A DNA stretch of 64,000 bases from Bacillus sp. DTU_2020_1000418_1_SI_GHA_SEK_038 (GTDB taxonomy: Bacteria > Bacillota > Bacilli > Bacillales > Cytobacillaceae): NCBI RefSeq assembly GCF_032341175.1, contig NZ_CP135435.1, positions 930,001 through 994,000 of the forward strand, in the 5' to 3' direction. Under the pieces are notes generated by a model that saw nothing but the letters and a program-made list of their open reading frames with translations, had not been told where the DNA came from and made no database searches. Made by a program: the position numbers and the translations under genes. Of the stretch, positions 46,042-64,000 are shown in pieces; positions within the stretch are counted from its first letter, which is position 1; every line of letters begins with the position of its first letter.

Positions 46042-46067
46042 AAAAGCAGAGGAATTCTGCTTTTTTT
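46042..46067 (+). terminator. Leader terminator/attenuator-like hairpin before yhdT-panF
   Basis: AAAAGCAGA (46042-46050) / TCTGCTTTT (46056-46064), loop GGAAT, then more T. It lies 54 nt before the yhdT start and reads in the same direction. No gene ends here on the plus strand, so it may end a short leader RNA. Confidence 0.6.
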
Positions 46068-52184: not shown

Positions 52185-53894
52185 TTAGCTGGGCTTTTCA
52201 ATCCCGTATTTTTTTATGTGATATTGAAGACTTTGACGGGTAATCCCAAGTTTTCTGGCTGCTTTTGATATATTCCAATCCGTTTGCTCTAGTGTTGTTA
52301 GAATAAAGTGTTCTTTTGAATTGGCAAAAATTGATTTTATTGGCTTCTTCTCTAATTCTTTCATTTCACTCGATTTATTTTTTGTTTGGGAAAATATTTT
52401 TCTTCTAATATAGGTTGGCAGATGATCTACTTCAATGACTCGATCTGTTTCGTTCACTCTAATAATGATGTTCTCGATTAAATGCTCAAGCTCCCTCGTA
52501 TTTCCTGGCCAATAGTATTGGAGAAGAGTAGTTTGTAACGATTTAGATAGATTTGGCACTTCTTTATTAAACTTGTCTTGATAAGATTCTAAGAAATATT
52601 CTATAAAGAAATGAATATCCTCTGTCCTCTCTCTTAATGGAGGAATGAAAAGACTCGTGCGTGCAATTCGATAAAATAAATCAAGACGCATTTTACCTTC
52701 AGAAATAAGCCTTTCCGGGTCTTCGTTTGAAGCACTAATCACAGTGCATTGCACGGGTGTTACATCGTTTGATCCTACTCGTCTGACTAACCGTTCCTGT
52801 AAAACACGCATAAGCTTAGATTGCAATGTCATTGGCATAGAGTTGATTTCATCTAGAAATAAAGTGCCATCCTTTGCGTGTTCAAAGAGACCAATTTGAT
52901 TGGTCGCTCCAGTAAAAGCTCCTTTCACTGTGCCAAAAAGGGTGCTTTCTAAAAGGTTTTCAGGTATGGCTGCACAATTAATAGCGATAAATGGGCTGTT
53001 AGCTCTTGGGCTGTGATTATGGATGCTTTGGGCAAACAGCTCCTTCCCTGTTCCTGTTTCTCCAACAATTAACACATCGGTGTTATGAATCGCAATGTTT
53101 TGTGCCTCTTTTATTAAATTTTTTAATGCGAGGCTATTTCCTTTAATATTTTCAAACGTATAAGTAGTGCCATTTTTTGATTCAGCCCCGCTTTTTTCAG
53201 AACTAGTAATTTTTCGTTTCTGTTCAATAGTCTGATAAAGCATATCTTTGAGTCTAGTTTCATTTGTACTAATGGAATAAACGGCAATTGTTTCTCCATC
53301 CTTTTGGATAGGAAATGTGCTGTAATTCACATATTTTGGCACTCCATTAACAGTTGAATGAGCTCTATATCTTGAAAAAATAGGCTTTCCAGTCTTGAAG
53401 GTATGTTTATGCTCGGAATTTTGCGGATTGTAATTATAAACAGACCACAAGTGCTGGCCTATAATCTCATTCCTATTCAGCCCTTCCATTTTCTCCTGAG
53501 CAAGATTGTATAAAACAATTTCGCCCTTTTGATTGCTCATCATAATCCCTTCACCTAATGATTCGATAATTTTTTCCAAGCAATATAATCTCATTTTTGG
53601 ATTCTTTAATAAGTCAGAAATATCCTCAAAGCAAAGAATAATATAAGGATGATTGGCAGAAAACACCTTAACCTCAACAGAAAATTTTCTCTGATTGAGT
53701 GTAACCGAAAAAGATTCATTATCCATAAATCGTACATGCTCGCAGGGGATAAAATTAGAAATATGAGTGCCTTCAGTAAATTCAAACGAAATAATTTCGC
53801 TTAGGTCTTGCCAAAGTATCTCGTAATTTTCATTTAAGATTATTACGCCATCCGCCTGACCTTTCATTAGTGAACCAAGTGATGCTGCAATCAA
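52185..53894 (-). CDS. Sigma-54-dependent transcriptional activator
   Basis: 569-aa enhancer-binding protein from a TTG at 53894, set by AGGAGGAG; the upstream frame to 53993 would cover an activator site. Domains: two PAS-like sensory regions (about 10-100 and 110-215), then AAA+ with Walker A GETGTGKELFAQ, the sigma-54 contact loop GAFTGA, Walker B GTLFLDEIN and the arginine-finger region LFYRIARTSLFIPPLRERTE. The C-terminal Fis HTH is NISKAARKLGITRQSLQYHI. It is divergent from hutU and most similar in layout to RocR/BkdR-type Bacillus regulators. The 15-bp elements before the three nearby sigma-54 promoters are its likely binding sites. The PAS ligand is unknown. Confidence 0.9.
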   Translation of the reverse strand: MIAASLGSLMKGQADGVIILNENYEILWQDLSEIISFEFTEGTHISNFIPCEHVRFMDNESFSVTLNQRKFSVEVKVFSANHPYIILCFEDISDLLKNPKMRLYCLEKIIESLGEGIMMSNQKGEIVLYNLAQEKMEGLNRNEIIGQHLWSVYNYNPQNSEHKHTFKTGKPIFSRYRAHSTVNGVPKYVNYSTFPIQKDGETIAVYSISTNETRLKDMLYQTIEQKRKITSSEKSGAESKNGTTYTFENIKGNSLALKNLIKEAQNIAIHNTDVLIVGETGTGKELFAQSIHNHSPRANSPFIAINCAAIPENLLESTLFGTVKGAFTGATNQIGLFEHAKDGTLFLDEINSMPMTLQSKLMRVLQERLVRRVGSNDVTPVQCTVISASNEDPERLISEGKMRLDLFYRIARTSLFIPPLRERTEDIHFFIEYFLESYQDKFNKEVPNLSKSLQTTLLQYYWPGNTRELEHLIENIIIRVNETDRVIEVDHLPTYIRRKIFSQTKNKSSEMKELEKKPIKSIFANSKEHFILTTLEQTDWNISKAARKLGITRQSLQYHIKKYGIEKPS

Positions 53895-53976
53895 ATCTTC
53901 TCCTCCTGACTTAATAAACTTACAACAGTTAATTTCGAATATAACATTAATTATAAATTTTTTAAATAGTCTGCAT

Positions 53977-53991
53977 GCAGTATTTATCTGC
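53977..53991. promoter_or_regulatory. Activator-site candidate 1 (GCAGTATTTATCTGC)
   Basis: First of eight copies of the 15-bp element GCAAAANNNATCTGC. It lies 210 bp before the hutU -24 element and 82 bp upstream of the activator gene, so it could also serve autoregulation. An overlapping CTGCATGCAG palindrome starts at 53971. Confidence 0.75.
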
Positions 53992-54054
53992 ATCGATATA
54001 AATTAACCTAGAATGCACTTGATTGTGTGCAAATCTAGGTCTAAATAAAAAGGC

Positions 54055-54069
54055 GCAAAATCTATCTGC
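54055..54069. promoter_or_regulatory. Activator-site candidate 2 (GCAAAATCTATCTGC)
   Basis: Second copy, 78 bp from the first and 131 bp before the hutU -24 element. Confidence 0.75.
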
Positions 54070-54200
54070 GGATCCTTCTAAAAAGTTATTTGAAAAGCTC
54101 GACATTCCAATTAGAAAAAAAGATTTTAATAAATAAAAAACTTGATAGTTTCGGCTTTTTTGTATGAACAATCAGGAAATTTCCATTACTCGTTTTCATT

Positions 54201-54216
54201 TGGCACACTCCTTGCA
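54201..54216 (+). promoter_or_regulatory. Sigma-54 (SigL) promoter of hutU
   Basis: TGGCACactccTTGCA matches the -24/-12 consensus TGGCAC-N5-TTGCW perfectly. It lies 50 bp before the hutU start codon. Confidence 0.92.
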
Positions 54217-54265
54217 TTGTCTAATAATGAGTGTCAGCAATTATTAAATCTAGGAGGAATTATAC

Positions 54266-55987
54266 ATGTCAAAACCAGAAATCCTATATTCCGTTAAAGC
54301 ACAAAGAGGACCAGAGCTACGCTGTAAAGGGTGGAGACAAGAATCTATTCTAAGAATGCTAGAAAATAATATGGAAAATGCCGAAAAGCCTGAAGAACTA
54401 GTGATCTATGGCGGAATCGGTAAAGCTGCTCGTAACTGGGAATCTTACCATGCGATTGTTAAATCTTTAAAAGAGCTTGAAGATGATGAAACGCTAGTTG
54501 TGCAATCTGGGATGCCTGTTGCGGTATTTAAAACACATAAATATGCTCCAACAGTTGTCATGGCAACGACTAACATCATGAAGGCTGACTGGCCAACATT
54601 CTATGATCTACAAGATAAAAACTTAACAATGTATGCAAACTATACAGCAGCACCTTGGGAGTATATTGGTACACAGGGTGTTATCCAAGGTACATTTGAA
54701 ACATTATCGGCAATTGCTCGACTTCATTACAATGATTCACTTGTTGGAAAAATCCTATTAACAGCTGGAGCTGGCGGAATGGGCGGAAACCAGACAAGAG
54801 CGATGACGATGCATGGCGGAGTAGCGATTCTATGTGACTCAAACGTTGAAATTATTAATCGCCGTATTGAAAAGAAATTTATCGATGTATTAGCAGATTC
54901 ATTGGATGATGCGATTGCGATGGCGAAGGAAGCAGCTGCTGAAGGCAAACCACTTGGTATCGCAGTAGTTGGAAATGCAGCGGATATTTTTGAAGAGGTT
55001 CTTGAAAAAGGCTGGTTGCCAGACATTACAACTTCTATGACACCAGGACATGACCCAATTTCCTACTTGCCGGCTGGCTACACAGTGGAAGAAGCAGAAA
55101 AGCTTCGTGACACTGATCGCACTCTATATTTAGAAAAAGCACGTGAAACGATGATTCGTGAACTGAAAGCGCTAATCAAATTTATGGATCTTGGTGTTCA
55201 TTCATTTGAATACGGTACAAGCCATCGTAAAGAGTGTATCGATGCCGGATTTGATGAGAAGGAAGCGAAGCGTCTCCCTGGTTTCGTAGCTGAATACCTT
55301 CGTCCATTATTCTGTGAAGGCCGTGGACCTTTCCGTTGGATCTGTCTATCAGGTGAAGCAGATGACTTACGTAAAATTGATGAAATGATTTTAGAGGAGT
55401 TTGCTGATGACTATCTAGTCACTCGCTGGATCAAGTTAGCGATGAAGCATATTCCGATTGAAGCCTTACCAGCACGTATTTGCTATATGGGCTTCGGTCA
55501 GCGTAAGAAGTTTGCTTTAAAAGTAAATGACATGATTCGCAAAGGTGAACTTGCAGGACCAGTTGCCTTCTCACGTGACAACTTAGACTCTGGTTCCATC
55601 GTGAATCCAACATTTGAATCTGAAAATATGAAGGACGGATCTGATTTAATTTCTGACTGGCCTGTATTGAACGGTCTATTGAATGCAGTTGGCATGTGTG
55701 ACCTAATTGCGCTTCAAGCAAACTATTCAATGGGTGAGGCTGTTCACACTGGAGTAACGATGATTGCAGACGGTACAGCTGAATCTGATATGAGACTTGA
55801 AGTAGCAATGACAGTGGACTCCGGAATTGGAGTTGTCCGTCACGCACAAGCTGGCTATGAAATCGCCCAAGATGTTGCGAACGGAAAAGGAAAGTTAACG
55901 AAGGAAAGCATCCAAATCCCATTATGGTGGTCGCCAAAGGCAACATTTGGACCGAAGGATTTAGAAAAAGAAGAAGTAAAAGCATAG
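54266..55987 (+). CDS. hutU: Urocanate hydratase (urocanase), divergent type
   Basis: 573-aa NAD+-dependent cytosolic enzyme, converting urocanate to imidazolone propionate in histidine breakdown. The ATG at 54266 follows TAGGAGG. Family features: LRCKGWRQESILRMLENNME, VIYGGIGKAARNWESYHAIV, YIGTQGVIQGTFETL, TAGAGGMGGNQTRAMTMHGG (dinucleotide binding) and the active-site Cys406 in LPARICYMGFGQR. Compared with typical urocanases the segment before YIGTQG (TTNIMKADWPTFYDLQDKNL, MYANYTAAPWE) differs from the usual TAGSW-type sequence. This raises the possibility of a related imidazole substrate. hutH, hutI and hutG are not in the window. Sigma-54 control replaces the HutP control known from B. 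subtilis. Confidence 0.85.
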   Translation: MSKPEILYSVKAQRGPELRCKGWRQESILRMLENNMENAEKPEELVIYGGIGKAARNWESYHAIVKSLKELEDDETLVVQSGMPVAVFKTHKYAPTVVMATTNIMKADWPTFYDLQDKNLTMYANYTAAPWEYIGTQGVIQGTFETLSAIARLHYNDSLVGKILLTAGAGGMGGNQTRAMTMHGGVAILCDSNVEIINRRIEKKFIDVLADSLDDAIAMAKEAAAEGKPLGIAVVGNAADIFEEVLEKGWLPDITTSMTPGHDPISYLPAGYTVEEAEKLRDTDRTLYLEKARETMIRELKALIKFMDLGVHSFEYGTSHRKECIDAGFDEKEAKRLPGFVAEYLRPLFCEGRGPFRWICLSGEADDLRKIDEMILEEFADDYLVTRWIKLAMKHIPIEALPARICYMGFGQRKKFALKVNDMIRKGELAGPVAFSRDNLDSGSIVNPTFESENMKDGSDLISDWPVLNGLLNAVGMCDLIALQANYSMGEAVHTGVTMIADGTAESDMRLEVAMTVDSGIGVVRHAQAGYEIAQDVANGKGKLTKESIQIPLWWSPKATFGPKDLEKEEVKA

Positions 55988-56025
55988 TCATATTTAGGTT
56001 CCCCTACAACACTTGTCTTAACGTA

Positions 56026-56068
56026 AACAGTCTGCTTTTCCCTTGGATGGAGGAGCGGGCTGTTTTTT
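56026..56068 (+). terminator. Intrinsic terminator after hutU
   Basis: AACAGTCTGC (56026-56035) / GCGGGCTGTT (56055-56064, two wobble pairs) followed by T run. It separates hutU from the ABC operon. Confidence 0.75.
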
Positions 56069-56109
56069 CGATGGAAAAACTTATTGTTTTTTATTAGCTT
56101 CAGTCGATA

Positions 56110-56124
56110 GCAGAATTTATCTGC
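56110..56124. promoter_or_regulatory. Activator-site candidate 3 (GCAGAATTTATCTGC)
   Basis: Third copy and the most symmetric: GCAGA-N5-TCTGC is a perfect dyad. It is the distal site of the first ABC operon. Confidence 0.8.
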
Positions 56125-56230
56125 GTTTAGATAATGGCCTCTTATTTTAGGGGGATACTTGATATTAACAGTGTTTGCTTATTTGTTAGCAAAATTAAGT
56201 TAACCATTTACAGTATAACCACAAAAACCC

Positions 56231-56245
56231 GCCAAACCTATCTGC
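56231..56245. promoter_or_regulatory. Activator-site candidate 4 (GCCAAACCTATCTGC)
   Basis: Fourth copy, 121 bp after site 3. The left half has one deviation (GCC for GCA). Confidence 0.7.
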
Positions 56246-56307
56246 ATAATATGAATGCTTCTAAATTGAATGGATTATCAATAAAAGTACTTTCTTATAT
56301 TAAAAGA

Positions 56308-56322
56308 GCAAAAATCATCTGC
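56308..56322. promoter_or_regulatory. Activator-site candidate 5 (GCAAAAATCATCTGC)
   Basis: Fifth copy, 77 bp after site 4 and 115 bp (start to start) before the -24 element. Confidence 0.8.
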
Positions 56323-56422
56323 GTTATTACGTGTCATATTTTTATAAAAGGGGGAACAATTCGTTCTGCATATGACTAGAACACCCGCATAAATCGGAAT
56401 TTTCTGAATAATAGGTCATTCT

Positions 56423-56438
56423 GGCATAATTTTTGCAA
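56423..56438 (+). promoter_or_regulatory. Sigma-54 promoter of the branched-chain-type ABC operon
   Basis: TGGCATaatttTTGCA, one base off the -24 consensus. The surrounding sequence (GTCATT before, AAAGATTTTAATTGAT after) is nearly the same as at the promoter at 61487. Confidence 0.88.
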
Positions 56439-56482
56439 AGATTTTAATTGATAACTAAAAAAATGATCCGGGGTGAGATTGC

Positions 56483-57646
56483 ATGAAAAAGATGCTTTAT
56501 CTATTATTATTAGTTTTTTCTTTGATTTTAACAGCTTGTAGTGCAGAAAATTCAGATGGAAAGGAAGCCTCTAAAGATTCAAAAAAGAACAGCCAAGATG
56601 CGATTAAAATTGGTTGGTTTGGACCGTTGACAGGGCCTACATCTACTGACGGGCAAATAAGTTTAAATGCTTCACAACTGGCCGTAGATCAAATTAATGA
56701 AAATGGTGGAATTAATGGACAAAAGGTAGCACTAATTTCTGTTGACGACCAAGGCAAGCCGCAAGAAGCCGCAAAAGGAGTTCAAAAATTAATAAATAGT
56801 GATAAGGTAGTTGCCGTTATAAGCGGAGCCTACTCAGGTCCAACTTTAGCAGCGGCTTCCCTAGTTCAAAAAGAAGGCGTACCAATGATTGTTTCATATG
56901 CGAAGCACCCAGAAGCTACAAAGGGAGGGGACTATGTTTCTAGAATGATCTACACCTCTGATGTACAAGCAAAAGCTCTTGCGGATTATGCCGTAAATGA
57001 AGAGAAATTAAAAACCTTTGCTATTGTATATATGAATATTGATTATGGTAAGGAAAGCCAGGTTGCTCTAGAGAAAGAAATAAGTGAGTTAGGTGGTAAT
57101 GTTTTAGTAAGTAAATCATTTAATATGGGTGATACTGATTTTAATTCAGCTTTATCAGCTGTGAAGGAAAAAAAACCTGATGCTATATTTGTTGTAGCCT
57201 ACTACAATGAGGGTGCTTCCATCGTAAGCCAAGCAAAACAAATGGGTCTAGAATCTAGAATAATCGGCATTGATGGTTTGGATGCACCAAAATTTCTCGA
57301 ATTAGCTGGGGATCATGCTGAAGGAACTGTCATAACTACCTCATTCTATACGGCAGATGAGAGAGAAATAGTTCAAAAATTTGTTAAAGCCTATAAGGAA
57401 AAATTCAATACCGAATTAAGTATTACAGCTTCCCAGAGCTATGATGCGGTTTTAGCGATAAAGGATGCAATTGAACGTTCAAGTACTGATAGAGGGGACA
57501 TAGCTAAGGCAATTAATTCAACTAAAGATTTAGAAGGCACCTCCGGAAATATTACAATTGATGAAAATCATGAAGTCGTTAAGCCAATCGTATTCATGAA
57601 AGTTGAAAATGGAGAATTTAACTACCTGCATTCAAAAACATATTAA
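56483..57646 (+). CDS. Branched-chain-type ABC transporter substrate-binding lipoprotein
   Basis: 387-aa extracytoplasmic solute receptor of the LivJ/Peripla_BP_6 family. The signal peptide MKKMLYLLLLVFSLILTAC ends in a lipobox (LTAC, Cys19 lipidated), followed by a Ser/Lys-rich linker. The binding domain begins IKIGWFGPLTGPTSTDGQIS and continues with AVDQINENGGINGQKVALIS and AVISGAYSGPTLAAASLVQK. GGGGTGAG precedes the ATG. It is first in the operon with livH, livM, livG and livF-type genes. The sigma-54 and urocanase context suggests histidine, urocanate or a similar imidazole ligand instead of leucine; this is inference. Confidence 0.88.
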   Translation: MKKMLYLLLLVFSLILTACSAENSDGKEASKDSKKNSQDAIKIGWFGPLTGPTSTDGQISLNASQLAVDQINENGGINGQKVALISVDDQGKPQEAAKGVQKLINSDKVVAVISGAYSGPTLAAASLVQKEGVPMIVSYAKHPEATKGGDYVSRMIYTSDVQAKALADYAVNEEKLKTFAIVYMNIDYGKESQVALEKEISELGGNVLVSKSFNMGDTDFNSALSAVKEKKPDAIFVVAYYNEGASIVSQAKQMGLESRIIGIDGLDAPKFLELAGDHAEGTVITTSFYTADEREIVQKFVKAYKEKFNTELSITASQSYDAVLAIKDAIERSSTDRGDIAKAINSTKDLEGTSGNITIDENHEVVKPIVFMKVENGEFNYLHSKTY

Positions 57647-57656
57647 ATATATAAGT

Positions 57657-57700
57657 GGAAATAAAAGGGATTCAATATAATATTGTATCCCTTGTTTTCC
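57657..57700 (+). other. Intercistronic hairpin after the receptor gene
   Basis: AAAGGGATTCAATA pairs with TATTGTATCCCTT (57665-57677 / 57681-57693) with loop TAA, plus outer GGAAA/TTTCC. It is a common device for partial termination or mRNA protection that raises the receptor above the permeases. Confidence 0.7.
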
Positions 57701-57727
57701 TTTTTAACTGTAAAGGGGTGGGATGAC

Positions 57728-58609
57728 TTGATAGTTGAACAGTTAATTAATGGAATAGCATTAGGTTTCGTATATGTACTAATAGCACTTGGGCTAACAA
57801 TGGTATATGGAGTATTAAAAGTTTTGCACTTTGCCCACGGTGTTATATATATGGTTGGAGCCTTCTCGGCAATGGTAGGAATATTATATCTAAATCTTTC
57901 TTTTATACCATCTTTGATATTTGCCTTAGTAATTTCTGGCCTGGTTGGTGTAGGGATTGAAAAGTATGCTTATAGACCTCTAAAAGATGTCCATCCAATC
58001 ACGGTTCTTATAAGTGGTGTAGGAATAGCTATATTACTTCAAAATCTATTTCAAATTATTTTTACATCTGATTCTCATGCCTTCCCAAAAACGAATATTG
58101 GGGTACACAGTATTGATATTTTGGGGATTGCATCATTAACTAATATTAAACTTTATATGATCATAATTGGTCTTATTGTTTTAGCTGTGCTTTACCTGTT
58201 CTTGAATTTCACCAAAATAGGTATAGCTATTAAAGCAGTTTCTCAGGATCGGAAGGCAGCTGCATTAATGGGTATAAATGTTAATAGAATTGTCATGGTT
58301 ACTTTTCTGCTTGGTTCTATGCTAGCCGCTTTAGCTGGCATTATAACTGCGTTAAATTATAATACACTATCACCTGCTATGGGGGATATTCCCGGATTAA
58401 AAGCTTTCTGTGTTGTTGTACTAGGTGGTTTAGGTTCAATTCCCGGAACAGTCTTAGGTGGATTGATATTGGGAATAGCAGAGGCATTAAGTACAGGATA
58501 TTTAGAGGGCATGCCTATTGATACGAATGCCATCGCTTTTATACTGCTAGTTGTTATTTTACTAATAAAACCTTCAGGAATATTCGGAAAGAATATAGAA
58601 AAAGTGTAG
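57728..58609 (+). CDS. LivH-type ABC permease
   Basis: Membrane permease of about 293 aa, 8 TM helices. The start is TTG 57728 with AAGGGGTGGGA upstream; the frame to 57683 would begin inside the hairpin. Family features: EQLINGIALGFVYVLIALGL then TMVYGVLKVLHFAHGVIYMV (residues about 3-42), and AVSQDRKAAALMGINVNRIV (the EAA-like loop touching the ATPases). The C-terminal GVLGLGSIPGT-type motif reads VVLGGLGSIPGTVLGGLILG. It pairs with the LivM-type permease just downstream. Confidence 0.88.
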   Translation: MIVEQLINGIALGFVYVLIALGLTMVYGVLKVLHFAHGVIYMVGAFSAMVGILYLNLSFIPSLIFALVISGLVGVGIEKYAYRPLKDVHPITVLISGVGIAILLQNLFQIIFTSDSHAFPKTNIGVHSIDILGIASLTNIKLYMIIIGLIVLAVLYLFLNFTKIGIAIKAVSQDRKAAALMGINVNRIVMVTFLLGSMLAALAGIITALNYNTLSPAMGDIPGLKAFCVVVLGGLGSIPGTVLGGLILGIAEALSTGYLEGMPIDTNAIAFILLVVILLIKPSGIFGKNIEKV

Positions 58610-58618
58610 GTGATATCA

Positions 58619-59560
58619 TTGTTGGATTTTATTAACCCATATTATATAGATATTTTAATTTTTTTAGTGATTAATATTCTTTTAGGCCTAGGATTGAATT
58701 TAACAACTGGATTTGCAGGTCAGGTTTCTTTGGGACACGCAGCATTCTATGGAATTGGTGCTTACACATCAGCCATATTATCTGCTAATTATGGTTTAAA
58801 TGTTTGGATATCCATGCTCATTGCTATTGTAGTAACTTTCTTATTAGGTGCACTTTTAGGGCTGCCTAGTTTGCGTTTAAGGGATGATTTTCTTGCAATT
58901 ACAACATTGGGCTTAGGACTTGTCGCGCACTCTTTTTTTAATAATTCCCAACTTACAGGAGGAGCGTATGGAATAAATTCAATACCTGCCCCAACCTTTT
59001 TTGGGATAGAGGTGGAGAACGTAGGATATCTCATTTTGGTTGTCATTGCATTAATCTTAGCCATCTATATCATGAGAAAAATGACACGGTCTAGAATTGG
59101 GAGAGCTTGGGTGACTATAAGAGAAGATGAAACTGTAGCTCAATCGATGGGAATCAATACCATGTATTATAAAGTGTTAGCCTTTGCAATCGGAGCAGCC
59201 TTTGCAGGTGTTGCAGGTGCCTTATTTGCTCATAAAATTTATTTTGTAAATGCTGACTCTTTTACATTTACAACTTCAGCAACTATCTTAAGTATGATCG
59301 TTATAGGTGGGTTGGGTAGTATAAGGGGAACTTTATTAGGTGTGACACTTTTATACACAATACCGGAACTATTTCATATTTTTGATGTAGGAAATTTGTT
59401 GAACTTAAATTATCTAGATAATTATAAAATGATGTTTTACGGATTACTTATGGTTTTAGTTATGAGATATAGTCCTAAAGGATTGATAGACATTAAAAAT
59501 ATAAAAATTAGAAATTTAAAACCAGCTGTGAAAAGTGGTGATCAGAATGTTGGAAGTTAA
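58619..59560 (+). CDS. LivM-type ABC permease
   Basis: About 313 aa, 8-9 TM helices. Start choice TTG 58619 or 58622, both after TAGGTGA that overlaps the livH-type stop; the GTG at 58610 lies within that site. Signatures: LNLTTGFAGQVSLGHAAFYG then IGAYTSAILS (residues about 24-55), RVGRA/RIGRAWVTIREDETVAQSMG (read here as two parts RSRIGRAWVTIRE and DETVAQSMGIN) and VIGGLGSIRGTLLGVTLLYT. It overlaps the next ATPase gene by 14 nt. Confidence 0.85.
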   Translation: MLDFINPYYIDILIFLVINILLGLGLNLTTGFAGQVSLGHAAFYGIGAYTSAILSANYGLNVWISMLIAIVVTFLLGALLGLPSLRLRDDFLAITTLGLGLVAHSFFNNSQLTGGAYGINSIPAPTFFGIEVENVGYLILVVIALILAIYIMRKMTRSRIGRAWVTIREDETVAQSMGINTMYYKVLAFAIGAAFAGVAGALFAHKIYFVNADSFTFTTSATILSMIVIGGLGSIRGTLLGVTLLYTIPELFHIFDVGNLLNLNYLDNYKMMFYGLLMVLVMRYSPKGLIDIKNIKIRNLKPAVKSGDQNVGS

Positions 59561-60314
59561 AAATGTTTCAAAGTTTTTCGGTGGATTAACAGCTATAAAA
59601 AATGTAAGTCTGAAGGTACAAAAAGGTGAAATTTTTGGTTTAATTGGACCAAATGGCGCAGGTAAAACAACATTGTTTAATATGTTAACAGGAATTTATA
59701 GTCCTAATAATGGAGAAATAGTATTTGAAGAAACTATGATTCAAAAGTTAAAACCATTTCAAATAGCCAGATTAGGAGTTTCAAGGACATTCCAAAATAT
59801 AAGGTTATTAGGTAATGAGACTGTTGCAGAAAATGTAAAGATAGGAATGTTTCGAAAGACAAAGTCAGGCTTAATTTCAGCTATAATGAATGCTAAATCT
59901 CAACGGAAAGAAGAGCAATTTGTTGAAGAAAAAGTTAAACAAATATTAATGGAGGTTGGTTTAGAAAATTACATGGATTTAAATGCAGGTAATTTATCTT
60001 ATGGAAATCAGCGTAAGGTAGAGATAGCCCGCGCACTTGTATCTGATCCAAAACTTATATTATTAGATGAACCATGTGCGGGTATGAATGATACTGAGGT
60101 AGAAGAAATAAATTTATTAGTAAAAAGTATACGAGACAAAGGGACAACAGTGATCATTATCGAACATAATGTCCCTATGCTAGTAGGATTGTGTGATAGT
60201 ATGGCTGTATTAAATCACGGAGAGAAGATAGCTGATGGATCTCCTGAGCAAGTTACTTCTGATAGCGCAGTAGTAAATGCCTATATAGGAAGTGAAGAAG
60301 AGGAAGTGATTTAA
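59547..60314 (+). CDS. LivG-type ABC ATPase
   Basis: 255-aa ATPase from the ATG at 59547. Walker A GPNGAGKTTLFNML (residues about 33-46), Q-loop FQNIRLL, signature LSYGNQRKVEIARAL (a LSxGxQ variant usual in LivG), Walker B LILLDEPCAGMND and H-loop IIEHNV. The extended region after Walker A with SPNNGEIVFEET fits the family. It forms the motor with the LivF-type ATPase next to it. Confidence 0.9.
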   Translation: MLEVKNVSKFFGGLTAIKNVSLKVQKGEIFGLIGPNGAGKTTLFNMLTGIYSPNNGEIVFEETMIQKLKPFQIARLGVSRTFQNIRLLGNETVAENVKIGMFRKTKSGLISAIMNAKSQRKEEQFVEEKVKQILMEVGLENYMDLNAGNLSYGNQRKVEIARALVSDPKLILLDEPCAGMNDTEVEEINLLVKSIRDKGTTVIIIEHNVPMLVGLCDSMAVLNHGEKIADGSPEQVTSDSAVVNAYIGSEEEEVI

Positions 60315-61019
60315 TTGCTAACAATAAAAAATCTGAATGTTTTTTATAACCAAATTCATGCAGTAAAAGATCTCAACATAGAGTTAAATAAAGGGGAAAT
60401 AGTAACCTTAATGGGATCGAATGGTGCTGGAAAGTCCTCAAGTCTAAATGCGATTTCTGGATTAATAAAATCCTCAGGTTCCATCCTATTTAATGGTGAT
60501 GAAATAAATAGATTAAGTCCAGATCAAATTGTTAAAAAAGGAATAGTAATGGTTCCCGAAGGTCGAAGAATTTTTCCTAAATTAACAGTTTTGGAAAACT
60601 TGCTATTAGGAGCATATACTAGAAACGTTACTAATAATATTAAAGCACAGGAATTGGAAGAAATATTTGAATTATTTCCTAGACTTGAAGAAAGAAAAAG
60701 GCAATTAGGCGGTACAATGAGTGGTGGTGAGCAGCAAATGTTAGCAATAGGCAGGGCATTAATGGGGAAACCAAAAGTTTTAATGCTTGATGAACCATCT
60801 ATGGGGTTAGCACCAATCGTTGTAAAAGATATTTATGAAACTATTAAGAAAATTAAAGGCCAAGGGCTAACAATATTATTAGTTGAACAAAATGCAAATA
60901 AAGCATTATCTGTTGCTGATAGGGCATACATCATCGAGAATGGACAAATTAAATATCATGATAAGGCACGAAATTTATTAGAGCAAGATGTTATCCAAAA
61001 AGCCTATCTTGGTGGCTAA
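60315..61019 (+). CDS. LivF-type ABC ATPase
   Basis: 234-aa ATPase, start TTG 60315 directly after the livG-type stop, with GAGGAAGTGA upstream. Walker A GSNGAGKSSSLNAI (residues about 34-47), VPEGRRIFPKLTVLENL (Q-loop region characteristic of LivF), signature MSGGEQQMLAIGRAL, Walker B VLMLDEPSMGLAPI and H-loop LVEQNA. It closes the five-gene importer operon and is followed by a strong terminator. Confidence 0.9.
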   Translation: MLTIKNLNVFYNQIHAVKDLNIELNKGEIVTLMGSNGAGKSSSLNAISGLIKSSGSILFNGDEINRLSPDQIVKKGIVMVPEGRRIFPKLTVLENLLLGAYTRNVTNNIKAQELEEIFELFPRLEERKRQLGGTMSGGEQQMLAIGRALMGKPKVLMLDEPSMGLAPIVVKDIYETIKKIKGQGLTILLVEQNANKALSVADRAYIIENGQIKYHDKARNLLEQDVIQKAYLGG

Positions 61020-61131
61020 ATATTGTTCTTATAAATTCAGCTGCGATCTAGTAATACGAACCCTAATTTCTATTCTAAAAGTTTAATAAAAGTAATTGGC
61101 AAGATACATTCTTAATATTAGTTAATATTAG

Positions 61132-61175
61132 AAATAGCCTATTTTCCCTTAAGGAAAAGTAGGCTATTTTTTATT
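61132..61175 (+). terminator. Intrinsic terminator of the five-gene ABC operon
   Basis: AAATAGCCTA (61132-61141) / TAGGCTATTT (61160-61169), with inner TTTTCC/GGAAAA, then T run. Activator site 6 begins just after it. Confidence 0.88.
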
Positions 61176-61177
61176 AA

Positions 61178-61192
61178 GCAAAAAACATCTGC
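61178..61192. promoter_or_regulatory. Activator-site candidate 6 (GCAAAAAACATCTGC)
   Basis: Sixth copy, distal site of the second ABC operon. Confidence 0.8.
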
Positions 61193-61297
61193 ATGTAAAT
61201 AGGGTCTACTTAATAATGGCGTGACTAATACTTTTCATCGAATATCCTGCAAAAACGCAATAATTAATAAAAATTACAGTTTTTTTATTTTGCTTAT

Positions 61298-61312
61298 GCA
61301 AAAGTAATCTGC
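61298..61312. promoter_or_regulatory. Activator-site candidate 7 (GCAAAAGTAATCTGC)
   Basis: Seventh copy, 120 bp after site 6. Confidence 0.8.
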
Positions 61313-61374
61313 ATGATTAAAGAGTAGCTAAATAAAAGATTTTGACGAATAAACTGTTTGCAGTTAATAAAATA

Positions 61375-61389
61375 GCAAAAAACATCTGC
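61375..61389. promoter_or_regulatory. Activator-site candidate 8 (GCAAAAAACATCTGC)
   Basis: Eighth copy, identical to site 6, 77 bp after site 7 and 112 bp (start to start) before the -24 element. Confidence 0.8.
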
Positions 61390-61486
61390 AGTTTTATTTG
61401 CTGAATTTATTGAATAGAGGGAATATTTAGGAATAACGAGACTAAAGAAGCCCCTGTGATGCGAAATTATATTACATTAGTCATTT

Positions 61487-61502
61487 TGGCACAATCCTTG
61501 CA
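61487..61502 (+). promoter_or_regulatory. Sigma-54 promoter of the second ABC operon
   Basis: TGGCACaatccTTGCA, a perfect -24/-12 match, embedded in sequence closely similar to that around 56423-56438. Confidence 0.92.
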
Positions 61503-61649
61503 AAAGATTTTAATTGATTAGAAAAAATCATTTAAGAGAGGAGAGCGGTATTTTTCAAAGGATTAATCTCCTGATTGAAAAGATATTAGTAAATAGCTTA
61601 CTAGATTTTACGGAAAGTTTTGGTTACAAAATCCAAAGGGGGCAATGAA

Positions 61650-62480
61650 ATGAAAAGGTTTACAATTTTTGCTATTGTAATGATTTTCTCACTTATTCTA
61701 TCAGCTTGCGGTACGAGTCAAAAGACTTCAGAGGGAAGCGGAGATAGTGCAGCTTCAGGTGAAGGTAAGAAAAAACTTAAAATCGCAACAGAGGCAAACT
61801 ATGCGCCATTTGTATTTTTAGATAATGGTGAAATGAAAGGCTTTGACGTTGACTTTATGAGTGCCGTTGCTAAGGAAGCAGGCTATGAATATGAAATGGT
61901 CCATGTCGGCTGGGATCCTCTATTTGTCGAAGTAAAAGACAAACTTTCGGATATGGGGATTTGTGCGATTACGATTAATGATGTGCGATCAGAAACCTAT
62001 GATTTTTCTGCACCATACTATTTATCAACGAATGAGATTCTAGTTCCAGAGGGCAGTGATATTAAGAGTGCAGCTGACTTAAAGAATGACAAGGTAGTGG
62101 CAGTTCTTGGCGGAACGACTGGGGAAGCGGCAGTAGAGAAAATACTTGGAGTAAACAATAAAAACATTAAAAAGTTTGATAATAATAATTTAGCCATTTT
62201 GGAATTAACGAGTGGCGGTGCAGATGCAGTAGTTGCCGATAATGCAGTAGTTCAGGCTTATGCCCAGAATAATCCAAACGATAAGCTAAATGTTATTAGC
62301 GATAAAGAAGGCTTTGAAAATGAATTTTACGGCCTTATGTTTCCAAAAGGCAGTGAATTAAAAGCAGAATTTGATGTGGCTGTTACTGAGGTTTTGAAAA
62401 ATGGAACTTATACTGAAATTTATAAGAAATGGTTCGGAGTAGAACCGGATGTTGAGACCATTTTAGCTCAGCAAAAATAA
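61650..62480 (+). CDS. Polar-amino-acid-type ABC substrate-binding lipoprotein
   Basis: 276-aa receptor of the SBP_bac_3 family (HisJ/GlnH/ArtJ type). The ATG at 61650 follows AAAGGGGG. The signal peptide MKRFTIFAIVMIFSLILSAC ends with lipobox LSAC (Cys20). The binding domain starts LKIATEANYAPFVFLDNGEM, followed by GFDVDFMSAVAKEAGYEYEM and the RSETYDFSAPYYLSTNEILV hinge region. The ligand is probably a polar amino acid such as histidine, inferred from the shared sigma-54 control with hutU. A hairpin separates it from the permease. Confidence 0.88.
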   Translation: MKRFTIFAIVMIFSLILSACGTSQKTSEGSGDSAASGEGKKKLKIATEANYAPFVFLDNGEMKGFDVDFMSAVAKEAGYEYEMVHVGWDPLFVEVKDKLSDMGICAITINDVRSETYDFSAPYYLSTNEILVPEGSDIKSAADLKNDKVVAVLGGTTGEAAVEKILGVNNKNIKKFDNNNLAILELTSGGADAVVADNAVVQAYAQNNPNDKLNVISDKEGFENEFYGLMFPKGSELKAEFDVAVTEVLKNGTYTEIYKKWFGVEPDVETILAQQK

Positions 62481-62491
62481 ATAATTAAATC

Positions 62492-62529
62492 AAAATTGCG
62501 TAACGCAGTAGGAAAAGTTACGCAATTTT
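62492..62529 (+). other. Intercistronic hairpin after the second receptor gene
   Basis: Perfect 13-bp stem AAAATTGCGTAAC (62492-62504) / GTTACGCAATTTT (62517-62529). As in the first ABC operon, it sits between receptor and permease and probably sets their expression ratio. Confidence 0.8.
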
Positions 62530-62551
62530 GGTTTACATAGGGGGAAGAGCA

Positions 62552-63208
62552 ATGGATTTCAGGTTGGACATCTTAGTAAATTATATTCCTTTCTTTGTAA
62601 AGGGGACATTATTAACGATTGGTTTGTCAATTGTAGGTATTATATTTGGAACCATTCTTGGTTTATTTATCGGCTTAGGGAAAATGATGAAAAATAAGCT
62701 GCTTGCCTTTATTTTTAATTGCTACATTATATTTTTCCGCGGAACACCTTTATTTGTTCAAATATTATTAATTCATTTCGGGGTAGTACCATTATTTATT
62801 GGGCATACGAATGGGATTGTGGCTAGTATTATTGCGCTCTCCTTAATTGCAGGTGCCTATATAGCTGAAATTTTTCGTGCTGGTATACAGTCCATTGATA
62901 AAGGACAGATGGAAGCAGCCCGTTCTCTCGGCATGTCCCATGTTCAAGCAATGAAACATGTCATATTGCCTCAGGCCTTCAAACGAATGATCCCTCCTCT
63001 AGGGAATGAGTTCATTGTCCTTATTAAAGAGTCCTCCCTCGCAGCCATCGTGGCGACACCTGAACTGATGTACTATGGACGAGCATTAGCTAGTCAAACT
63101 TTCCGTGTGTGGGAGCCTTATATTACAGCAGCGCTCATTTATCTTGTGTTAACAACAACATTAGGCTTCTTATTGAATAAACTTGAAAGAAGGTTGACAA
63201 CAGAATGA
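62552..63208 (+). CDS. Polar-amino-acid ABC permease (HisM/GlnP type)
   Basis: 218-aa membrane permease with five TM helices. The ATG at 62552 follows AGGGGGAAGAG. Features: [20 protein letters not shown] (His/Glu/Gln/Arg permease N-terminus), [16 protein letters not shown], and the EAA loop [20 protein letters not shown] then [17 protein letters not shown]. As a single permease gene it probably works as a homodimer. It overlaps the ATPase gene by 4 nt. Confidence 0.9.
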
Positions 63209-63927
63209 TTCAAGTGAAGAAATTAAAAAAAACATTCGGACAAAATGAAGTTTTAAAAGATATTAATGCTTCTATACAACCACAGGAAGTTGTCGTTGTG
63301 ATTGGTCCATCAGGGTCAGGAAAGTCTACATTTTTAAGATGTATTAATTTGCTTGAATCGATAACAGACGGTCAAATTACAATTGAGGGCGTTGATATAA
63401 CCGATAAAAAAACAGATATTAATAAAGTAAGAACTGAAGTCGGAATGGTTTTTCAGCAATTTAATTTATTTCCTCATAAAACGGTCATTCAAAATATCAT
63501 GCTTGCTCCTATGCAAGTGAGAAAAATATCTGCAGAGGAAGCTAAGAAAACAGGTCTTGAGCTTCTGAAAAAAGTGGGACTTGAGGAGAAGGCAAATGTT
63601 TATCCAGATTCATTATCAGGCGGGCAAAAGCAGCGGGTTGCAATTGCAAGAGCGTTAGCGATGAAGCCAAAAATCATGCTTTTCGATGAGCCGACCTCAG
63701 CGCTAGATCCAGAAATGGTTGGAGAAGTGCTTGAAGTAATGAAGCAATTGGCTAAAGAAGGGATGACGATGGTTGTTGTAACTCATGAAATGGGATTTGC
63801 CCGAGAAGTGGGAGATCGGGTTTTGTTCATGGATGGAGGTGTCATTGTCGAAGAAAATAGTCCGAAAGAAATTTTTGAAAACCCAAAGCATGAAAGAACG
63901 AAAGCTTTTTTAAGTAAAGTTTTATAA
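63205..63927 (+). CDS. Polar-amino-acid ABC ATPase (GlnQ/HisP type)
   Basis: 240-aa ATPase. Walker [15 protein letters not shown] (residues about 32-45), Q-loop [17 protein letters not shown], signature [19 protein letters not shown], Walker [21 protein letters not shown] and H-loop [12 protein letters not shown], with [17 protein letters not shown] at the C-terminus. This is the complete PAAT-family ATPase. It is the last gene of the operon; a terminator follows. Confidence 0.92.
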
Positions 63928-63973: not shown

Positions 63974-64000
63974 GGATAAGATATCTGCTCCATGCAAAAT
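63974..64000. promoter_or_regulatory. Possible further activator sites at the right edge
   Basis: GGATAAGATATCTGC (63974-63988) keeps the full right half ATCTGC and part of the left. The last seven bases GCAAAAT (63994-64000) match the left half of another copy that runs off the window. This suggests another sigma-54 unit beyond the edge. Confidence 0.35.

Follow-up and report, generated by a model that had tools for sequence, protein, structure and literature searches.

A Predicted Sigma-54 Regulon for a Divergent Hut-Like Pathway in Bacillales

Introduction

The canonical pathway of histidine degradation (HutH, HutU, HutI and HutG) is controlled in Bacillus subtilis by HutP, CodY and CcpA. 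The present analysis concerns a cluster of hut-like genes in Bacillus sp. DTU_2020_1000418_1_SI_GHA_SEK_038, located near the end of a stretch of 64,000 nucleotides (hereafter, the window; C1:930001-994000 of contig NZ_CP135435.1, in a genome of 4.47 Mb). The cluster comprises a gene for a sigma-54 activator, a hutU homologue (hutU2a) and two ATP-binding cassette (ABC) importers, and its transcription units are preceded by copies of a 15-bp dyad, GCARA-N5-TCTGC. Just past the window follow a second hutU homologue (hutU2b), hutI2, a gene for an M20 hydrolase, a permease gene and hutH2. We are highly confident that this is a local sigma-54 regulon, real and specific. The best explanation as a whole, i.e., the regulon, a re-specified Hut island and N-tau-methylhistidine as its substrate, receives from us a probability of about 0.55.

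The cluster shares with canonical hut the enzyme families and the order of the reactions, and HutU2, HutI2 and HutH2 pass the corresponding NCBIfam cut-offs. It differs from canonical hut in its altered active sites, in having an M20 enzyme in place of HutG and in its dedicated sigma-54 activator, and the canonical copies coexist with it. The degradation of N-tau-methylhistidine, as announced by the title of Beliaeva 2022, has in common with the cluster the idea of a Hut-like route for a ring-methylated histidine. Ergothioneine utilization (NF058530, NF058531, NF058538, NF058540) likewise combines a divergent HutU homologue, an amidohydrolase and an M20-family hydrolase; however, HutU2 scores far below the thiourocanate models, and no ErtD or ErtE homologue was found among the Bacillus sp. 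cluster genes scanned.

Concerning regulation, the sigma-54 regulons described in Firmicutes (RocR, BkdR, AcoR, SoxR, PrdR and Clostridium HiaR) also rely on one local activator and upstream sites. According to PMC6615313, there are several such sites 100–250 bp upstream of the -24/-12 promoter, and HiaR of Clostridium controls hiaL-hyp-hutH; PMC4941409 has SoxR of Bacillus thuringiensis acting via an inverted repeat. PrdR-type sites (TGT-N10-12-ACA, also in PMC6615313) differ from the cluster dyad, and the activator does not reach the PrdR model NF041552 (379 bits against a cut-off of 795). A cre box inside a site pair, which is a feature of the cluster, is not mentioned for the Firmicutes sigma-54 regulons in the portion of text compared. 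The regulon and its motif were not found in the literature searched; most subscription papers lay outside that search, and absence from print is not claimed.

Results

The 15-bp Element in the Bacillus sp. Genome

An earlier interpretation of the window (the sequence-only reading) had reported eight 15-mers upstream of the cluster units, none having been noticed elsewhere in the window. The element is indeed present at all eight places, but only five of them fit GCAAAANNNATCTGC exactly: that at 56110 is a GCAGA variant, and those at 53977 and 56231 have one mismatch to GCARA-N5-TCTGC. One isolated exact GCARA-N5-TCTGC (GCAGAGGAATTCTGC) stands at 46046-46060, outside the cluster. When one mismatch is allowed, the window contains 29 strand-matches, near-palindromes being scored twice, once per strand; in 100 dinucleotide shuffles the mean was 8.6, and none of them reached 29.

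In the complete genome, GCARARNNNATCTGC occurs exactly eight times, always within C1:984055-994087, i.e., in about 10 kb that go from window position 54055 to just beyond the window end; one of these occurrences spans that end and another lies wholly past it. With one mismatch allowed, there are 95 matches genome-wide against 22 for the reversed-pattern control. A candidate second regulon locus near hutG, with one-mismatch sites at 4333907 and 4334004 (97 bp apart), was discarded: the first site is part of a coding frame, both sites are separated from hutG by a LysR gene, and no -24/-12 was seen by eye in 700 bp.

Conservation of the Element and the Activator

Named genomes were scanned for HutU2, which yielded 74 loci from the best 80 of 172 encoding stretches: 43 of Bacillales (L012-L054) and 31 of other groups (L055-L085, here called distant). 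In the Bacillus sp. locus plus the 43 Bacillales loci, GCARA-N5-TCTGC has 93 matches against one for the reversed pattern, while in the 31 distant loci it has one against none. A -24/-12 promoter with a site within 460 bp upstream was found for 49 of 52 hutU2 genes (43 exact sites and six with one mismatch); this per-gene count, which skipped genes with a start outside the alignment and one livJ too near the end, is fairer than the count over 60 promoters given below. Internal genes served as a control, and a site precedes none of the 43 M20, 24 permease, 20 hisM and six livH genes, one of 42 hutH2 and four of 44 hutI2.

The element was also counted over the whole of the 43 genomes. GCAAAWNNNATCTGC occurs 142 times in them (reversed control, 22), with 69 occurrences within the fetched 917 kb and 73 in the remaining ~206 Mb, which corresponds to 75 per Mb in the loci and 0.35 per Mb elsewhere; at least one occurrence falls within the fetched part in 33 of the 43 genomes. 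Nineteen of the 73 outside matches were examined as possible members of the regulon and rejected: no -24/-12 was present at a distance of up to 450 bp from any of them, and 16 are located in open frames with 195 codons or more. Of 20 outside stretches fetched, one was the cluster of L041.

An orthologue of the activator stands beside hutU2 in 39 of the 43 Bacillales loci (40 of 44 with the Bacillus sp. locus). Among 101 relatives, searched with a query one residue longer than the final start gives and including at least one genome that recurs among the 43, the activator was found at 74% identity or more in five; the exact site pair is present in four of these five and in none of the 96 others. 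Over 299 genomes of the order, both the exact pair and hutU2 were found in the Bacillus sp. genome only, the best other HutU proteins being at most 52% identical, which is the level of canonical HutU. Activators of the distant loci show a different recognition helix (IRQSLxYRMKK versus TRQSLQYHIKK) and their loci lack the dyad; one of these, L067, has TTGCATAAAAATTATGCAA-type dyads instead.

The sequence-only reading had staked its proposal on the element being neither of random frequency genome-wide nor absent near orthologous activators, and the counts above agree with it on both points. Its idea of a SigL regulon with its own PAS activator is supported by this comparison, and the 15-mer is well supported as the probable enhancer of that dedicated activator.

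Promoter Architecture and a cre-Like Box

Two of the three -24/-12 promoters proposed by that reading, at 54201 and 61487, are perfect; the third begins at 56422 rather than 56423 and has one mismatch. The unit does not end with the window: two more sites (one of them cut by the window end) and a perfect -24/-12 precede the five-gene catabolic operon located past it. The Bacillus sp. genome contains 16 perfect TGGCAC-N5-TTGCA sequences; three are in the cluster, each with exact motif sites upstream, and the remaining 13 are far from every exact motif site.

In 60 promoter regions assembled by hand, the commonest spaced word was GCAAA-N5-TCTGC (53/60), while promoter words reached at most 52; as most regions were already known to bear the site, the 53/60 is not independent. 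Left out of the 60 were L030_10243 and L048_10243, inside hutU2, and other -24/-12 matches that include L012_4989, L021_4862, L032_4888, L036_4889, L040_3438, L040_8234 and L046_20395. In these regions the site is preceded by T in 81% and followed by A or G in 94%, with A at position 6 in 75% and at position 10 in 88%; the information at core positions arises partly by construction, as the sites were picked on the core, and flanks and spacer are free of such picking. The site is better written TGCARA-N5-TCTGCA. A promoter core follows downstream of 89 exact sites, which stand 110–149 bp upstream of the core in 38 cases and 190–229 bp upstream in another 38; the spacing between neighboring sites is 77–81 bp in 41 of 56 cases. 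The liv and his promoters have a third site, near 310 bp.

A perfect cre-like box, TGWNANCGNTNWCA, which we take to be the cre consensus, appears in 14 of the 60 regions, whereas 200 dinucleotide-shuffle sets gave 0.035 on average and never more than one. In 14 of 14 cases the box starts 25–27 bp after the distal site and 52–55 bp before the proximal one. In the Bacillus sp. genome, the box TGAAATCGTTTTCA is located at C1:994019-994032, 19 bases past the window end, between the two sites of hutU2b; a further 13 promoters, all of relatives, have the box in this position.

Divergence of the Enzymes

HutU2a passes the TIGR01228 model with 648 bits against a cut-off of 375, the canonical copy of the same genome reaching 973 bits. 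This copy belongs to a hutUI pair at C1:429958; the genome also contains a second lyase, with His83, at C1:1007170, and hutG at about C1:4335055. Compared to five other rows, HutU2 differs from all of them at 15 columns, and the canonical motifs are changed from GGAQP to GGNQT, from TDQTSAHD to TSMTPGHD and from RDHLD to RDNLD, with a two-residue gap in HHGGG. A function as thiourocanate hydratase was considered and dropped because neither copy reaches the models NF058530 (608.7 bits for HutU2a and 603.5 for HutU2b, against 930) or NF058531, of S-methyl thiourocanate hydratase (643 and 642.1, against 880). In a midpoint-rooted tree with 24 HutU2 sequences among its 32 rows, HutU2 and the relatives from Burkholderia, Paraburkholderia and Streptomyces are set apart from canonical HutU and a third HutU class by a branch (100/99) of length 1.16; on its side of this branch, the separation of HutU2 from Streptomyces is not clean (49/61). 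The coexistence of HutU2 with canonical HutU was counted in 50 of the 74 loci: a second HutU of at least 927 bits is present in 42 of the 43 Bacillales genomes with hutU2, the other one (G325) having only fragments of up to 570 bits, and a long-form urocanase is present in six of seven other genomes.

The lyase HutH2 passes TIGR01225 (660 bits against a cut-off of 539) and keeps the ASG triad of the 4-methylideneimidazole-5-one (MIO) group. At the position of histidine ammonia-lyase (HAL) that we take to be His83 in Pseudomonas putida numbering, Asp is found in 42 of 42 Bacillales cluster lyases, including HutH2 of Bacillus sp.; the 18 distant lyases have Asp in nine and Cys in nine, Streptomyces has Asn, and two Burkholderiaceae clusters and the canonical lyases have His. 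The other HAL catalytic residues are kept, except in shortened rows, in five distant rows with SSG for ASG and in L083. HutI2, which is over the NCBIfam hutI cut-off, has HADA in place of the HADE of the canonical copy in 41 of 44 Bacillales rows (three unmatched); in 27 other rows the variable residue is Ala in eight and Gln in one, and 18 were unmatched by the search expression. In the M20 enzyme, the EE of PepT relatives is replaced by EQ (43/43); this enzyme follows HutI2 in 44 of 44 Bacillales loci and in none of the 31 others, and in the Bacillus sp. genome it coexists with hutG.

The earlier assignment of the cluster to urocanate or imidazole is not supported: its hydratase is a divergent paralogue, canonical hutUI lies elsewhere, and the linked homologues of lyase, hydratase and imidazolonepropionase differ at residues common to the canonical enzymes compared. 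The 'urocanate' label of the hydratase is probably wrong, and from these comparisons the island seems likely to encode a re-specified Hut pathway.

Candidate Substrate

The target of FtcD and HutF is a formimino group, which requires a hydrogen at C2. FtcD and/or FTCD_C homologues come after HutI2 in 23 of the 31 distant loci, and HutF comes after it in Streptomyces (594 bits against 362); these neighbors were assigned by domain scans on examples and by clustering for the remainder. The need of such partners for a hydrogen at C2 points to a substituent carried by a ring nitrogen. N-tau-methylhistidine, a compound of this kind, is the best-fitting candidate, and we give it an even chance. With a smaller residue at position 83, space would be gained for the distant end of the ring. 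The interaction of His83 with the substrate imidazole is discussed in PMC11432326, where HAL is also said, with citation of a 2022 paper, to accept N-tau-methylhistidine. The residue at position 83 had also been considered as proof of charge pairing, which was dropped, as Cys and Asn also occur there.

MTTB-family methyltransferases without an internal stop lie near hutU2 in six of the 31 distant loci (L057, L061, L062, L063, L075 and L077), which are anaerobe and actinobacterial contigs; L061 has a corrinoid protein as well.

Discussion

Proposed Mechanism

The divergently transcribed activator, with PAS, AAA+ and Fis-type domains, would bind paired dyads TGCARA-N5-TCTGCA, mostly 77–81 bp apart and about 110–150 and 190–230 bp upstream of the -24 element, and by DNA looping it would activate the sigma-54 RNA polymerase. 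Four promoters would be driven in this way: those of hutU2a, the liv-type importer, the his-type importer and the operon hutU2b-hutI2-M20-permease-hutH2. The putative CcpA operator inside the site pair of the hutU2b promoter probably turns this operon off when a better carbon source is available. Concerning the reactions, HutH2 would remove ammonia from a ring-modified histidine, HutU2 would hydrate the resulting acrylate, HutI2 would open the ring and the M20 hydrolase would release glutamate. Comparison of sequences shows the gene content, the specificity and conservation of the motif, the promoter layout, the coexistence with canonical hutU and the active-site changes; from these we infer DNA binding, control by sigma-54 and by CcpA, the reaction of each enzyme and the substrate.

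A wider formulation is advanced only tentatively, as its odds seem to us somewhat worse than even. According to it, HutH2, HutU2 and HutI2 would constitute a re-specified histidine-analogue pathway, observed here in seven phyla, with a substrate that the family libraries used leave unassigned. In Bacillales its control would depend on a single DNA module, a composite enhancer with a CcpA operator placed at a constant register between two new sigma-54 activator sites, which would integrate inducer, sigma-54 and carbon status. The 77–81 bp spacing would then be set by the need to house two activator sites and the CcpA operator.

Several observations do not fit well with these interpretations. 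The hutU2 of L046 has a promoter with a degraded site; L054, which was counted among the 49, is weak, its site being reversed and with one mismatch and its -24/-12 match being 11 bp away from the start; and two of 44 hutI2 genes possess sites but no promoter. The combination of promoter and site was found before livJ in four of the five scored and before hisJ in only four of 18, so the transporter units would belong to the regulon only in some lineages. The exact cre-like box is confined to the 14 regions mentioned and, in the Bacillus sp. genome, to hutU2b. HutU2 and HutH2 still score above the cut-offs of the hutU and hutH models, and 18 distant HutI2 rows did not match the search expression for HADE or HADA. 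Finally, Burkholderiaceae relatives with the HutU2 signature adjoin ErtD and ErtE, and their lyase keeps His83.

Alternative Explanations

It could be thought that the island is a second, sigma-54-controlled histidine/urocanate pathway, with isoenzymes for other conditions. The scores of HutU2, HutH2 and HutI2 above the hutU, hutH and hutI cut-offs, and the FtcD and HutF partners found elsewhere, which fit formiminoglutamate, are compatible with this. However, canonical HutU coexists in all but one of the Bacillales genomes, His83 is lost in 60 of 60 cluster lyases (Bacillales plus distant loci), HutU2 and HutI2 are changed at residues common to the canonical enzymes compared, and the M20 enzyme kept in every Bacillales locus would be redundant with HutG were the product plain formiminoglutamate. 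In addition, according to PMC4428206, a sigL mutant of Bacillus thuringiensis still grows on histidine (doubling 16.9 versus 15.9 h), which means that the ordinary hut of this species needs no sigma-54. Isoenzymes are thus an unlikely explanation, though the strongest competitor. The Burkholderiaceae relatives raise another one, that the substrate is a C2-substituted histidine (2-thio, 2-oxo or 2-amino) degraded via a hydantoin or a carbamoyl/amidino glutamate, the M20 enzyme being carbamoylase-like. In the Burkholderia locus L009 the HutU2-like gene adjoins ErtD (681 bits against a cut-off of 600) and ErtE (616 against 520), so that a hydantoin route, and hence a C2 substituent, is indicated there; it is this cluster that speaks most strongly against a single substrate throughout the clade. 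Pairing with a 2-aminoimidazolium would also be conceivable for Asp at position 83. Against a C2 substituent in general stand the hydrogen required at C2 by the FtcD and HutF partners, the failure to reach the thiourocanate and S-methyl-thiourocanate hydratase models, the retention of His83 by the Burkholderiaceae cluster lyase, in clusters where HutI2 was not found, and the presence of Cys and Asn, besides Asp, in place of His83. The C2-amino variant, suggested by the Burkholderia neighbors, is weakened by the FtcD and HutF partners and is retained as a rival; taken together, C2-substituted substrates seem quite improbable to us.

With respect to the element itself, a regulator other than the neighboring activator might bind it. 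It would be surprising if this were so: the exact pair tracks the activator among the relatives (4/5 versus 0/96), the hutU2 genes of L052 and L053 have neither promoter nor site and no activator in the stretch examined, the distant activators with another recognition helix go with loci devoid of the dyad, and dyads 100–250 bp upstream are usual for such activators according to PMC6615313. The repeats could also be due to chance or merely to the shared ancestry of close DNA. Many of the relatives are close to each other, and three of those with the exact pair probably recur among the 43 loci (one with the same coordinates). Nevertheless, the element precedes four different promoters in one genome, its density is much higher inside the loci than outside, the internal genes of the same loci are generally devoid of it, and it persists where the proteins have diverged to 50–60% (L048-L050), so this explanation can be given hardly any weight.

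Implications

The annotation 'urocanate hydratase' is probably wrong in dozens of genomes, and it would give way to a testable modified-histidine pathway with named enzymes and importers, the regulator of which could serve as a sensor. N-tau-methylhistidine is a breakdown product of muscle protein; were it the substrate, the cluster would reveal the means by which bacteria in soil detect this compound and reuse it. The fixed enhancer-cre-enhancer layout, in turn, would offer a clear-cut example from nature of catabolite repression exerted within a sigma-54 enhancer. If the genes of Beliaeva 2022 were of the same family, the novelty would be limited to the regulation, the enzymes having been described before.

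Organization of the Cluster and Additional Observations

The features of the cluster are summarized in Table 1. All the genes named in the sequence-only reading (activator, hutU homologue, five-gene liv-type and three-gene his-type importers) are there. The start of the activator is most likely the TTG codon preceded by AGGAGGAG, which makes the site at 53977 intergenic. Its domains PF00158 (214 bits), PF02954 (43 bits) and PF13426 are all over the cut-off, and the GAFTGA motif is present. One sigL gene over the cut-off (456 bits against 277) and ccpA (538 against 442) are present in the Bacillus sp. genome.

Table 1. Coordinates of the cluster features. Positions refer to the window unless marked as genome positions; HTH, helix-turn-helix.
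Feature	Position	Strand	Remarks
Sigma-54 activator (PAS, AAA+ with GAFTGA, Fis-type HTH)	52185..53894	-	569 aa from TTG 53894
Distal activator site of hutU2a	53977..53991	+	GCAGTATTTATCTGC, one mismatch; 224 bp upstream of -24
Proximal activator site of hutU2a	54055..54069	+	146 bp upstream of -24
-24/-12 promoter of hutU2a	54201..54216	+	perfect TGGCAC-N5-TTGCA
hutU2a, divergent urocanate hydratase homologue	54266..55987	+	TIGR01228 648.6 bits; separate tree branch
Third activator site, liv-type unit	56110..56124	+	GCAGAATTTATCTGC; 312 bp upstream of -24
Activator site, liv-type unit	56231..56245	+	GCCAAACCTATCTGC, one mismatch
Proximal activator site, liv-type unit	56308..56322	+	
-24/-12 promoter of liv-type unit	56422..56437	+	one mismatch (TGGCAT)
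Five-gene LivJHMGF-type ABC importer	56483..61019	+	56483-57646, 57683-58609, 58610-59560, 59535-60314, 60315-61019
Activator site, his-type unit	61178..61192	+	309 bp upstream of -24
Activator site, his-type unit	61298..61312	+	
Proximal activator site, his-type unit	61375..61389	+	
-24/-12 promoter of his-type unit	61487..61502	+	perfect
Three-gene HisJ/GlnH-type ABC importer	61650..63927	+	binding protein from ATG 61650, permease 62528-63208, ATPase 63205-63927
Distal activator site of hutU2b	genome 993994 (window 63994..64000, first bases)	+	cut by window end
Second activator site of hutU2b	genome 994073		past window end
-24/-12 promoter of hutU2b	genome 994217		past window; perfect
hutU2b unit	genome 994001-1001669	+	past window; hutU2b (994282-996003), hutI2, M20 PepT-like hydrolase, permease, hutH2

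The proteins encoded by hutU2a and hutU2b are 96% identical. Besides the Bacillus sp. locus, hutU2 is doubled in ten of the loci fetched (L012, L013, L014, L020, L026, L030, L038, L040, L066 and L074), and one copy often stands alone beside the activator. In the tree, both copies of the Bacillus sp. genome pair together, and so do both L014 copies.

Six loci (L021, L025, L032, L036, L043 and L045) have a sigma-54 gene beside the cluster, inside the stretch fetched (domain scan in L021). Directly upstream of the canonical hutUI of Bacillus sp. there is a gene for an AraC-like regulator of 493 aa, recognized by eye (C1:428155-429636, L006:4156-5637). The third class of hutU homologues, with 773–785 bits, is represented by L108:6253-13246 and L109:6209-9515, and by the NCBIfam models it is not a thiourocanate hydratase. 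In L108 it is accompanied by canonical hutU and by genes for electron-transfer flavoprotein, and in L108 and L109 alike it has a neighbor of 540–550 aa that matches no NCBIfam model.

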